The translations under genes and the position numbers were made by a program. Under the pieces are notes generated by a model. That model had not been told where the DNA came from, made no database searches, and was given only the letters and a program-made list of their open reading frames with translations. From contig AAXZ01000003.1 in NCBI GenBank assembly GCA_000169395.1, positions 186,001-250,000 on the forward strand: 64,000 bases of DNA, given 5' to 3'. Origin of the DNA: Rhodobacteraceae bacterium HTCC2150 (GTDB lineage Bacteria > Pseudomonadota > Alphaproteobacteria > Rhodobacterales > Rhodobacteraceae). This document shows positions 38,644 to 44,048 of the stretch, in pieces. The number at the start of each line of letters is the position of its first letter. The stretch's first letter is position 1.

Positions 38644-40164
38644 CTAGTACCACGCATCGGGCAAATTTTCTTTACGTTTTGCCACGAACGCTTCTAATGC
38701 TTCGCGTGTGGCTTCTTCCATTTTAGGTTGTTCATATTCATCCAGCATTTTTTTGACACGGGCATTGGCACGAACGCGCATATCAAGAGAACCGGCTTCT
38801 TCCCAGCTTTCTACATTTTCGCTGTCACTCAGTTGTGGTTCGTAAAAGGCATTTTGATAGTTACGCATTGTATGACTACAGCCAAGGAAGTGCCCGCCGG
38901 CATCAACCTCGCCATAAGCATCACGTGCCATTGCCTCGTCTGATACATCCAAGCCTTGGTCCAACACTTTTTGGTAACTGCCCAAGCGGTCGGCATCCAT
39001 AATGAGTTTCTCAAACCCCGTACAAAGCCCACCTTCAAGCCAACCCGCGGAATGAAGAACGAAATTTGCGCCCGCCAGCATTGTTGAATGCATGCTATCT
39101 GCACTTTCGTACGCTGCCTGTGCATCTTCGATTTTTGAGGCAGTTAATGAACCACCACACCGCAACGGCAATCCCGCACGGCGGGCTAATTGTCCAATAG
39201 CATAGTTTGAAATGATCGGCTCAGGCATGCCAAAGGTAGGAGCGCCAGATTTTAGGGACATTGAGGATAAAAAATTTCCCAAAACAAACGGTGCACCTGG
39301 CCTTAACAATTGTACATACGCGCAGACCATCATTGCCTCGGCCATGGCTTGGGCCACGGATGCTGCCGTTGAAACAGGGCCCATAGCCCCTGACAGAATA
39401 AATGGCACGACAACCATGCCTTGACCGCGCGAAGAATAAACGCGTGCGGCCTCAGTGACGACTTTATCCACCAGCAATGGCGAATTGGTGTTCACATTTC
39501 CCATAATGACACAGTTTTTGTCCATGATTTCTTTGCCAAAAACAATCTCGGCCATATCAACACTGTCCTGCGCGCGCGTCATTTCCGTAATCGCGCCAAG
39601 GTGGGGTTTATCTGATAAGGTCATGTGGGCCATCAACATATCAAGATGGCGTTTACTGACGGGAACATCACAAGGCTCACAAGTAACAAAGCCACCGTGG
39701 TGCAGATTTGGGTGCATGTATGTCAGTTTCACCAGATCGCGAAAGGCATTCATATCGCCATATCTGCGACCACCTTCAAGATCGCGCACAAAGGGGGCGC
39801 CATACACCGGGGCGAATACCTGATTTTTACCGCCGATTGTCACCGATCGTTCAGGATTACGTGCCAGTTGGACAAATTCACTGGGTGCCATGGAGCAAAG
39901 GGATCTGATCCAGTCAGCAGATGCGCGCACGATATCACCTTCAACTTTAGCACCTTCGCGTTTCCATAAGGCGATGGATTCTGGATCATCCCGAAAAGCA
40001 ATGCCAACATCTTGGATAAGCCAATCGACTTGTGCCTCAAGCTTTTCGATTTGTTCTTGATTAAGCACATCAAAAAACGGCAACTCCCTTTTGACAAAGG
40101 GCGACGCAGGAACGCCTGTCTGCTGGTTTTCCCTATTGCGAGATGCGCGAGTGCGACGTGCCAT
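38644..40164 (-). CDS. MttB-superfamily corrinoid methyltransferase homologue, without pyrrolysine
   Basis: The product is a 506-residue protein of the trimethylamine methyltransferase superfamily. The family core is seen in VQLARNPERSVTIGG, DMNAFRDLVKLTYMHPNLHHGGF, GAMGPVSTAASVAQAMAEAM and GMPEPIISNYAIGQLARRAGLPLRCGG. The frame has no internal TAG, so like MtgB-type homologues it does not use pyrrolysine. Non-Pyl members may demethylate glycine betaine, carnitine or related quaternary amines. No corrinoid protein or reductive activator lies nearby, which is unusual for a methyltransferase working as in MtgBC systems. It is divergent from a LysR regulator. Confidence 0.88.
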   Translation of the reverse strand: MARRTRASRNRENQQTGVPASPFVKRELPFFDVLNQEQIEKLEAQVDWLIQDVGIAFRDDPESIALWKREGAKVEGDIVRASADWIRSLCSMAPSEFVQLARNPERSVTIGGKNQVFAPVYGAPFVRDLEGGRRYGDMNAFRDLVKLTYMHPNLHHGGFVTCEPCDVPVSKRHLDMLMAHMTLSDKPHLGAITEMTRAQDSVDMAEIVFGKEIMDKNCVIMGNVNTNSPLLVDKVVTEAARVYSSRGQGMVVVPFILSGAMGPVSTAASVAQAMAEAMMVCAYVQLLRPGAPFVLGNFLSSMSLKSGAPTFGMPEPIISNYAIGQLARRAGLPLRCGGSLTASKIEDAQAAYESADSMHSTMLAGANFVLHSAGWLEGGLCTGFEKLIMDADRLGSYQKVLDQGLDVSDEAMARDAYGEVDAGGHFLGCSHTMRNYQNAFYEPQLSDSENVESWEEAGSLDMRVRANARVKKMLDEYEQPKMEEATREALEAFVAKRKENLPDAWY

Positions 40165-41182: not shown

Positions 41183-41956
41183 TTAAAGAGCAGTCCAACC
41201 ACCATCTACGGAAATTGTTGTACCCGTGATTTGCGCGGCAGCGTCAGACGCCAAAAACACGGTGGTGCCCCCGATTTGTTCCATTGTGGCAAATTCTTTA
41301 GAAGGCTGACGCGACAAAAGGACATCGCGAATGACCGCATCGCGATCTAAACCGTATTCATCCATCGTGGCGGGGATCTGCTTTTCCACCAAAGGCGTCA
41401 AAACATAGCCTGGGCAGATGGCGTTGCAGGTAATTGACTCCTCGGCGGTTTCCAGCGCTGTTGTCTTAGTCAGCCCCACAACCCCGTGTTTGGCGGCGAT
41501 ATAGGCCGATTTGTAAGGCGAGGCTGTTAAACCATGGGCAGAGGCGATGTTCACCACCCTACCCCATCCAGCGGTACGCATCAACGGCAACGCAACGGCC
41601 GTTGTATGAAAAGCCGACGAAAGATTGATTGCGATGATCGCGTCCCATTTGTCGGCGGGAAATTTGTCTATTGGGGCGACATGTTGAATACCGGCATTGT
41701 TCACCAGAATATCGCAGGCTCCGGCGTGCTCGACCAAACCACGACATTGATCGGCCTTTGACATATCAGCCTGTATGTATCTGGCGTTCACACCAAATTC
41801 GGTGCCTATGCTTGCGGCAAGCGCATGGTCTGCATCGTCATTTGTAAATGAGTTCAAAACCACGTCTGCACCCGCACCCGCCAAGGCACGTGCCACACCC
41901 AAACCAATGCCAGAATTGCTGCCCGTGATGACGGCGGTTTTTTGAGCTAATGACAT
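41183..41956 (-). CDS. bdhA: 3-hydroxybutyrate dehydrogenase-type SDR
   Basis: The product has 257 residues. TGSNSGIGLGVA is the NAD-binding motif, NNAGIQ the NNAG motif, and YIAAKHGVVG gives Tyr-x3-Lys. The segment NAICPGYVLTPLVEKQIP, together with the C-terminus VDGGWTAL, is typical of 3-hydroxybutyrate dehydrogenase, which interconverts 3-hydroxybutyrate and acetoacetate during polyhydroxybutyrate and ketone metabolism. ATG 41956 has AAAGG about 7 bases upstream; the longer open frame to 42046 lacks one. A terminator hairpin and possible promoter lie upstream. Confidence 0.82.
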   Translation of the reverse strand: MSLAQKTAVITGSNSGIGLGVARALAGAGADVVLNSFTNDDADHALAASIGTEFGVNARYIQADMSKADQCRGLVEHAGACDILVNNAGIQHVAPIDKFPADKWDAIIAINLSSAFHTTAVALPLMRTAGWGRVVNIASAHGLTASPYKSAYIAAKHGVVGLTKTTALETAEESITCNAICPGYVLTPLVEKQIPATMDEYGLDRDAVIRDVLLSRQPSKEFATMEQIGGTTVFLASDAAAQITGTTISVDGGWTAL

Positions 41957-42047
41957 GGGTTCACCTTTTGGGTTGAAATTTGCGATGATCCTATATGCTG
42001 CACGTGCAAACTGTACAGGGTGACGACAACTAAATTCCGTCCACAAA

Positions 42048-42125
42048 ACAAAAAAAACGCCAGCACGAAGCTGGCGTTAAGTTATTGAGGCAGGTTTCAT
42101 ACAGGCAAGAAACCTATCGAGCAGT
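42048..42125 (-). ncRNA. Candidate small RNA or attenuated leader upstream of bdhA
   Basis: A compact minus-strand unit with all parts of a small transcript. The -35-like TTGGCC (42155-42160) is separated by 16 bases from TTATAA (42133-42138). A hairpin AGGTTTC/GAAACCT follows (42092-42098 with 42109-42115), and then a perfect nine-pair terminator with eight Us. The predicted length is about 76 nt. Because bdhA starts 94 bases beyond the terminator, the unit could instead be a leader whose terminator is sometimes read through. No Rfam family was recognised. Confidence 0.45.
42050..42078 (-). terminator. Strong minus-strand intrinsic terminator
   Basis: Read on the minus strand, AACGCCAGC and GCTGGCGTT form a perfect stem with loop TTCGT, followed by eight Us (the A-run at 42050-42057). 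No protein gene ends here: bdhA begins on the far side and the next gene upstream points away. Confidence 0.85.
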
Positions 42126-42239
42126 AAAGTCCTTATAAGCAATTCATCGCCGTGGGCCAAGCTAAAAGTTTGAATTGTTTGAAAAGGCACAATAGGCTTA
42201 TCCCAAAGAAAACAAGAGACCACAGGGAAGGTTGCCAGT

Positions 42240-44048
42240 ATGGAAACAGAGTTTTTCAACAAATCCAAGAGAATCGGCGCGGTTTTAGCGCTGATTCTTG
42301 CGACAACAGGCGCACAAGCAAAGCCAGAACACGGCATAGCTATGTATGGTGCCCCACAGCTACCACACGATTTTGTGTCCTTACCCCATGCAAACCCCGA
42401 TGCGCCCAAAGGTGGGCGAATCGTTTTTGGCGAGGGCGGCAGCTTTGACGGGATGAACCCTTACATTCAAAAGGGGCGCGCACCTTGGGGCGTAAGGACC
42501 CTTGTTTATGAAACACTTATGGGGCGTAATTACGGTGAACCTTTCGCCCTTTACGGTTTGTTAGCCGAATCGATTGAAACACCAGAGGATCGAAAATGGG
42601 TGGAATTCACGCTTCGGGCTGAGGCCCGATTCTCTGATGGATCACCCGTTACGGTTGAAGACGTGATTTGGTCTTTCGAAACATTGGGTACCGAAGGATC
42701 CGCGCGCTACAAGCGAAGCTGGGGTGACATTGCCAGAATTGCTAAAACCGGCGATCGAAAACTGCGCATTGATTTTGCAACCGATGACCGCGAAATGGCA
42801 TTGCTGATGGGATTACGCCCAATTTTGCAAAAATCCCAATGGGAAGGTCGCGACTTTGCTGACAATACATTGGATGTTCCTGTCGGGTCCGGTCCTTATA
42901 CAGTCGATGAGTTTGAAACCGGACGCTATGTTTCATTTAAGCGTAACCCAGATTACTGGGGCAAAGACGTGCCATTCATGCGCGGTCAAGCAAACTTTGA
43001 CGAGGTACGCTATGACTATTTCGGTGATTCCGGCGTTGTGTTTGAATCATTTAAAGCAGGTGAAATCAGCACTTACCGCGAATTCAACGAGGCGCTATGG
43101 GAAAGCAATTATGATTTCAGCCGCGTGACATCTGGTGATGTTGTGAAATCTGTTTTTCCACACAAACGCCCTTCTGGAATTGTTGGTTACGTGATGAACA
43201 CCCGACGAGACCAGTTCCAAGACTGGCGTGTGCGTGATGCATTGATCCATGCGTTCAATTTTGAATTCATCAGTGATGCCGTAAATGGGGGTAAAAAACC
43301 CCGCATTTCATCATATTTTTCCAATTCCGTTCTGGGCATGAAAAATGGTGCCGCCGATGGCAAAGTCGCTGAATTCTTAGCACCATATCAGGATGAATTG
43401 TTGCCTGGTGCCGTTGATGGATATCAATTGCCAATAAGCGATGGTTCAGAAGCCAATCGTAAAAACGTTCGCCGTGCGTTGGCTCTGTTTGAAGAGGCCG
43501 GCTATACCGTAGAAAATGGCGTCATGACGGGACCAGATGGCCCGTTTACCTTTGATATCTTATTGAAGGTCGGTGACGACGAAAACAAATCCATCATGTC
43601 AATGTATGTCGAATCCCTAAAACGGTTGGGAATTGAGGCGAGTATGACAATTGTGGATTCTGCCCAATATAAAGAACGCACCAACGTATATGATTTTGAT
43701 ATGGCATATTACTGGCGTGGATTGTCGCTTTCTCCTGGGAATGAACAAAAGTTGTACTGGGGATCAGGCGGCATCGAAAACCCGGGGACACGCAACTGGA
43801 TGGGCATGAATTCACCGGCGGCTGAGGCCATGATTGATAAATTGCTTACATCAACCGATGAAACTGACTTTATCGCCGCTACAAAAGCGCTGGATCGCGT
43901 TTTGACGTCAGGCCGTTATGTCATTCCAAAATGGTTCCGCGATGTTTCTACCGTGGCCCACAACAAAGAGCTGCATTTCCCCGACACATTGCCAATGTAC
44001 GGCGATTGGTTGGGTTTCCAGCCAGATGTTTGGTGGTACGAAGAATAA
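42240..44048 (+). CDS. Extracellular solute-binding protein, family 5 (YejA/oligopeptide type)
   Basis: The product is a 602-residue periplasmic binding protein. A signal peptide ends at GAQA-K near residue 27, and a family 5 (OppA/DppA/YejA) domain spans residues 70-590 (LVYETLMGRNYGEPFALYGLLAESIE, VPVGSGPYTVDEFETGRYVSFKRNPDYWG). Such proteins deliver peptides or peptide-like compounds to an ABC importer. The expected permease and ATPase genes are missing here: the gene is followed at once by a terminator. An in-frame GTG or ATG upstream was not seen. Similarity to YejA is by length and motifs only. Confidence 0.9.
   Translation: METEFFNKSKRIGAVLALILATTGAQAKPEHGIAMYGAPQLPHDFVSLPHANPDAPKGGRIVFGEGGSFDGMNPYIQKGRAPWGVRTLVYETLMGRNYGEPFALYGLLAESIETPEDRKWVEFTLRAEARFSDGSPVTVEDVIWSFETLGTEGSARYKRSWGDIARIAKTGDRKLRIDFATDDREMALLMGLRPILQKSQWEGRDFADNTLDVPVGSGPYTVDEFETGRYVSFKRNPDYWGKDVPFMRGQANFDEVRYDYFGDSGVVFESFKAGEISTYREFNEALWESNYDFSRVTSGDVVKSVFPHKRPSGIVGYVMNTRRDQFQDWRVRDALIHAFNFEFISDAVNGGKKPRISSYFSNSVLGMKNGAADGKVAEFLAPYQDELLPGAVDGYQLPISDGSEANRKNVRRALALFEEAGYTVENGVMTGPDGPFTFDILLKVGDDENKSIMSMYVESLKRLGIEASMTIVDSAQYKERTNVYDFDMAYYWRGLSLSPGNEQKLYWGSGGIENPGTRNWMGMNSPAAEAMIDKLLTSTDETDFIAATKALDRVLTSGRYVIPKWFRDVSTVAHNKELHFPDTLPMYGDWLGFQPDVWWYEE

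Follow-up and report, generated by a model that had tools for sequence, protein, structure and literature searches.

The locus and its features

The window, that is, the whole stretch of DNA that we analysed, is 64,000 nucleotides long. In it, a short unit on the minus strand lies between a gene for a family-5 substrate-binding protein and bdhA, the gene for 3-hydroxybutyrate dehydrogenase. The features of this region are listed below with the evidence for each in brackets.

42240-44048, plus strand: divergent family-5 substrate-binding protein gene (Pfam PF00496)
42161-42173, minus strand: conserved block TCAAACTTTTAGC, immediately 5′ of the -35 element (alignment of 126 distinct sequences)
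42155-42160, minus strand: -35 element TTGGCC, RpoH-like, with a TTG core (sequence, conservation, cited RpoHI/RpoHII promoters)
42133-42138, minus strand: -10 element TTATAA (conserved xxTATAA at a constant distance to the sRNA start)
42050-42125, minus strand: sRNA gene, predicted StsR orthologue, transcript of about 72-76 nt (fold z -5.05, covariance model 108.1 bits, BLAST)
42118-42124, minus strand: CTGCTCG near the 5′ end, complement of site B (CGAGCAG) in the dcw leader (site B in family leaders)
42092-42115, minus strand: hairpin 1, AGGTTTC / GAAACCT with loop (RNAalifold; practically invariant)
42092-42107, minus strand: complement of site A in the dcw leader (UpsM); in the own genome 16 of 16 bases match (perfect antisense match)
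42050-42078, minus strand: intrinsic terminator, 9-pair stem and U8 (sequence, covariation)
41995-42010, minus strand: TTTGCACGTGCAGCAT, likely a piece of bdhA's own control region (GCAGCAT-type motif in bdhA upstream regions)
41183-41956, minus strand: bdhA, downstream neighbour outside the unit (TIGR01963 above cut-off)

Read directly on the minus strand, the unit opens with TTGGCC (42160-42155), a 16-nt spacer and TTATAA (42138-42133). The arms of hairpin 1 follow, AGGTTTC at 42115-42109 and GAAACCT at 42098-42092, and then a terminator of nine pairs, AACGCCAGC-TTCGT-GCTGGCGTT (42078-42056), with a run of eight T at 42057-42050. The promoter, the hairpin and the perfect terminator with eight U described in the sequence-only reading were all confirmed in this way, as was its remark that no protein gene accounts for the terminator: no gene on the minus strand ends there. 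The transcript predicted from 42125 to the U tract measures 72-76 nt, both ends being predictions. The fold of the 82 nt from 42130 to 42049 has an energy of -24.8 kcal/mol, compared with -12.7 (sd 2.4) in 200 shuffles (z -5.05), and none of the 200 shuffles matched the native energy.

A scan for sigma-70 promoters reported none at TTGGCC-16-TTATAA. RpoHI/RpoHII promoters have TTG at -35 and TAT near -10, as given in part of PMC3441632 and in a figure legend of PMC10673084, and the TTG at -35 and TATA at -10 found here in 120 of 126 distinct copies appear to resemble them. Judged by its motifs, the promoter is better read as RpoH-like than as sigma-70. The block TCAAACTTTTAGC just upstream, whose conservation comes close to that of the promoter, may act as an upstream promoter element or as a site that also serves the divergent binding-protein gene. 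No Rfam release 15 family matched the window at gathering score, and the eight low-threshold matches around the element all stayed far under their cut-offs.

The unit is conserved throughout the family

BLAST with a 121-base stretch found matches in 289 of 295 family genomes. Among 61 relatives, 36 of the 37 family genomes matched at E 2e-13 or better, the sole exception among those 37 (G033) being 74% complete, and the 24 genomes from outside the family gave no match to the element below E 0.001. A covariance model built from 53 sRNA copies recovered the sRNA in all 390 genomes of the order, which represent 140 genera and in every row the same family, and in nearly all of them the gene is present as a single copy. 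When the same model was applied to a class-wide draw, two family genomes scored 104-108 bits and 6 of the 140 others 30-33 bits; we take the latter matches as chance terminators. From the names attached to the loci (Ruegeria, Rhodobacter, Marivita, Shimia and others) we read the family as the Rhodobacteraceae of the literature.

For the comparison of individual copies we used two sets of loci, L001-L053 picked by sRNA match and L054-L133 picked by bdhA match. The sets partly overlap (for example, L031/L122 and L051/L131 were judged to be the same contigs), and since some contigs occur in both, the 129 sRNA copies reduce to 126 distinct sequences. A 39-nt core, ACTGCTCGATAGGTTTCTTGCCTGTATGAAACCTGCCTC, is identical in 123 of these 126, a count read from the list. 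The promoter, [CG]TTGG[AC], 16 or 17 nt and xxTATA(A), stands at a constant distance to the sRNA start in the 120 copies mentioned above. Both stems, on whose conservation the sequence-only reading had staked its proposal, are conserved, and the covariation analysis it suggested gave a different answer for each. In the terminator stem, 5 of 9 pairs have changed on both sides, with 98.9% of cells paired. Hairpin 1 is practically invariant; with hardly any variation to draw on, covariation neither supports nor contradicts it.

A scan of 3 kb gave six terminator-like sites, this one among them, where 4.2 are expected by chance, and for this reason the terminator pattern alone is weak evidence. 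It is conservation across genomes that sets the element beyond chance. Such patterns being common in the region, one could suppose a terminator belonging to the upstream region, or chance hairpins, from which no RNA product arises. This would fit neither the minus strand, on which no gene ends at that point, nor the near-invariant core and the conserved promoter, and we regard its probability as negligible. Taken by its sequence and distribution, the unit is an sRNA gene complete in itself from promoter to terminator, and it is conserved across the entire family.

The sRNA is not tied to bdhA

The sequence-only reading had left two possibilities, an sRNA or a leader controlling bdhA. In the second case, transcription would start at 42125, pause or terminate at 42050 and, depending on a signal, read through into bdhA. 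The arrangement at our locus invites such a reading: bdhA runs in the same direction, and between the last T of the terminator and its ATG at 41956 there are 93 bases. Among the 76 bdhA-selected loci with the sRNA, the bdhA start lies within 150 nt in 41 and at 151-400 nt in 25, so that 66 of the 76 fall within 400 nt. Against this, the distance exceeds 400 nt (up to 2235) in the other 10, the sRNA is missing from the fetched stretch in 4 of 80 bdhA loci, and the bdhA start is missing from it in 13 of 53 sRNA-selected loci. In Sulfitobacter sabulilitoris (L045 and L116, apparently one contig) the two are separated by about 6.7 kb. The constant neighbour of the sRNA is the divergent binding-protein gene, present and divergent at 126 of 129 sRNA loci.

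An attenuator would call for a fixed site 5′ of bdhA and for mutually exclusive terminator and antiterminator structures. We found a variable distance and, in the consensus fold, two independent hairpins: hairpin 1 and the terminator form separate domains, with no conserved antiterminator partner. In addition, a GCAGCAT-type motif occurs in 65 of 120 bdhA upstream regions, in 54 of 101 with the sRNA near and in 11 of 19 without it (0.5 and 0.2, respectively, after shuffling). As the motif is common to these regions whether or not the sRNA is adjacent, it suggests that bdhA has a control region of its own, of which TTTGCACGTGCAGCAT is likely a piece; its regulator is perhaps one of polyhydroxybutyrate metabolism, which is a guess. 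The invariant part of the sRNA, moreover, matches a remote target (see below) and not bdhA. On the position of the sRNA relative to bdhA and on bdhA's own upstream motif we rejected the attenuator reading, to which we attach a very small probability. The sRNA half of the earlier proposal stands, as a promoter-to-terminator gene found family-wide, and the leader half is not supported. Elsewhere in the window, an MTTB (trimethylamine methyltransferase-like) gene at 38644-40164 is open, with no internal stop.

Conserved antisense sites in the leader of the dcw cluster

The dcw cluster, an operon for division and the cell wall, begins with mraZ. In the own genome (G000), the second strand-opposed match to the sRNA is an uninterrupted run of 16 of 16 bases at G000:C22:19264-19279, corresponding to sRNA nt 19-34. 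This site A sits 185 nt 5′ of the mraZ GTG. The own mraZ leader contains an internal terminator, as described for UpsM; in the part of PMC5089854 available to us, the origin of UpsM from a long mraZ leader with an internal terminator is described as a family feature.

An earlier set of mraZ leaders was biased because the leaders had been chosen by antisense match. All counts given here come from a set in which mraZ was located by protein alone in the 61 genomes, which avoids this choice. mraZ was present in 36 of the 37 family genomes (G022 is without it), and after G017 had been dropped as too short, 35 family leaders longer than 150 nt were counted. At least 11 contiguous bases antisense to the sRNA were found in 31 of the 35, mostly matching sRNA nt 19-36 and lying 150-210 nt 5′ of mraZ. 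With shuffled sRNAs the same criterion was reached by a mean of 0.06 and a maximum of 1 of 35 leaders, and none of the 20 outgroup mraZ leaders contained such a run. Two family leaders fell short of it, G021 with 10 nt (17 of 18 site bases) and G014 with 9 nt; the leaders of G029 and G008 have no site A. In G008 the sRNA core is intact although its leader lacks the site.

A second site, CGAGCAG, is antisense to sRNA nt 2-8. This site B is present in 28 of the 35 family leaders, 31-44 nt 3′ of site A, compared with a mean of 1.6 in shuffled leaders, and it is kept in a changed context in G035 and G015. Being within a conserved part of the leader, it may also be kept for other reasons. Cofolding the sRNA with the own UpsM leader gave -111.9 kcal/mol against -24.8 and -64.7, a gain of about 22 kcal/mol. 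Plain duplex energies allow very large loops and were set aside as evidence, and covariation between the sRNA and its target could not be used because the sRNA hardly varies. These results predict base pairing of the sRNA with both the dcw 5′ leader and UpsM.

G029 alone has an sRNA that is strongly changed, with 33 of the 39 core bases kept (L199, from 1583 on), and its leader has neither pairing site. The sRNA and the dcw leader of this genome look as if they had drifted together.

The sRNA as a probable orthologue of StsR

StsR (formerly RSs0827) of Rhodobacter sphaeroides is a 72-nt sRNA (PMC8307010). It was first found induced under iron limitation and late in singlet-oxygen stress (PMC3413700, PMC3688512). 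As far as the available parts of three later reports describe it, it depends on RpoHI/RpoHII, is induced in stationary phase and by stress, and pairs with UpsM and the dcw leader, whereby an RNase E site is exposed and growth slows (PMC8307010, PMC11354728, PMC8625941). The unit has the corresponding length of about 72 nt, with its own promoter and intrinsic terminator and with predicted transcript ends, and its predicted pairing is with the same leader (site A in 31 of 35 leaders of the family and in none of the 20 from the outgroup, site B in 28 of the 35 family leaders). Since size, predicted promoter type and predicted target all agree, we conclude, setting it against StsR by the description of the latter, that the unit is very probably a stand-alone, trans-acting sRNA orthologous to StsR.

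Pairing of StsR near the rpoE start codon has been reported for R. sphaeroides. We looked at 17 rpoE genes of the family that precede chrR: the longest antisense run was 6-7 nt or there was none, and in the own genome it was 6 nt. We therefore rejected rpoE as a conserved target and, since R. sphaeroides is the only species for which the pairing is reported, regard rpoE as a target at the level of that species, one that does not define the RNA. This missing rpoE pairing, and the fact that StsR was compared by description, leave some room for a family-wide sRNA distinct from StsR that likewise pairs with the dcw leader. Against such an RNA, size, promoter type and target all agree with StsR, nearly every genome carries just one copy of the gene, and genome searches at E up to 1 showed no second sRNA with the same UpsM antisense; we consider it very unlikely.

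A core that varies less than the dcw site

In G023, G015 and G028 the leader carries GGCTTCA in place of GGTTTCA, and in all three (L027, L203 and L008, respectively) the sRNA keeps its usual GAAACC arm. In addition, sRNA nt 9-18 and 37-39 are invariant and have no partner in the dcw leader. An sRNA that stays invariant where the dcw site drifts, and also in positions without a dcw partner, points to at least one further family-wide RNA or protein partner. The combined picture, in which StsR is a family core gene that docks on dcw at two points and varies less in its 39-nt core than the dcw site would require, is one that we put forward tentatively, as a possibility somewhat short of an even bet.

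Several candidates for a second target were considered. In G032, a motB-like gene has a perfect 20-nt antisense site over its ribosome-binding site (L137 1551-1570). An antisense run of 10 nt or more was found in none of 24 other family motB regions, and the own genome gave no MotB match; with the site in one genome only, motB was rejected as a general second target. Antisense sites in a glcF-like gene (judged from its translation) in G006 and G028 were rejected because they are not on the mRNA strand. Within the own dcw cluster, a murD-like gene contains an 18/19 antisense match to the sRNA linker (L165, G000:C22:29098-29116), which may be due to chance (E about 0.2).

A proposed mechanism and its significance

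Starting from the observed gene anatomy, the conservation and the antisense sites kept in the very leader that StsR targets, we infer expression, the sigma factor, pairing in vivo and the RNase E step as follows. Stress or stationary phase would raise RpoH-type sigma factors, by analogy with StsR and in keeping with the promoter, and the sRNA would be transcribed. In the folded RNA of 72-76 nt, a hairpin whose loop is exposed would be joined by a single-stranded linker to the terminator. Site A of the dcw leader, and of the UpsM derived from it, would be bound by nt 19-36, which comprise the loop and the hairpin's 3′ arm; site B, about 35 nt further 3′, would probably be bound by nt 2-8 at the 5′ end. 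Because site A repeats the sRNA's own 5′ arm, pairing could begin at the loop and then, through strand displacement, open up the hairpin. The leader would then refold, RNase E would cut and the division genes would fall, this last step being taken from StsR: for R. sphaeroides, pairing is reported, in the parts available of PMC8307010, PMC11354728 and PMC8625941, to expose an RNase E site, to lower UpsM and dcw mRNA and to slow division. We are confident of this account as a whole, from the RpoH-type promoter and the sRNA through two-site pairing with dcw/UpsM to slowed division.

The analysis moves a regulator studied in one phototroph into a family-wide setting and predicts the same stress-linked brake on cell division for almost all the members examined, marine roseobacters included. 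Our search found no entry for the unit in Rfam release 15, so existing annotations of the family's genomes probably lack it, a gap that the alignment and the covariance model obtained here would close. The strict invariance of the core raises the question of what else the sRNA binds.

Comparison with known systems

The best low-threshold Rfam match was RyhB (RF00057), which reached 20.5 bits where the gathering score is 55; only the terminator is alike, a hairpin with a CUUCG-type loop and a U tract. SorY (RF02651), an sRNA of R. sphaeroides, belongs to the same bacterial family and is of similar size, but scored 13 bits, its gathering score being 111. A literature search for RSP_0827 returned nothing concerning R. 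sphaeroides. Either of the entries intergenic 134 and 60 in the available part of a Paracoccus denitrificans sRNA list (PMC5107571) could be the same RNA as our unit; the accessible portion of the Ruegeria pomeroyi list (PMC4809877) has no entry that we could link to it. UpsM (RSs0682), or the dcw 5′ leader, is a predicted partner and not a relative, its homology to the unit being confined to the short antisense sites. The closest counterpart is StsR of R. sphaeroides. It differs in the reported pairing with rpoE, which is not evident in the 17 relatives. Both come from the same bacterial family, and both are single genes for RNAs of about 72-76 nt, with their own terminator and an RpoH-type promoter (predicted here) and with antisense to UpsM and the dcw leader. 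To this description the present analysis adds the family-wide spread, the near-invariant core and the predicted two-site pairing.
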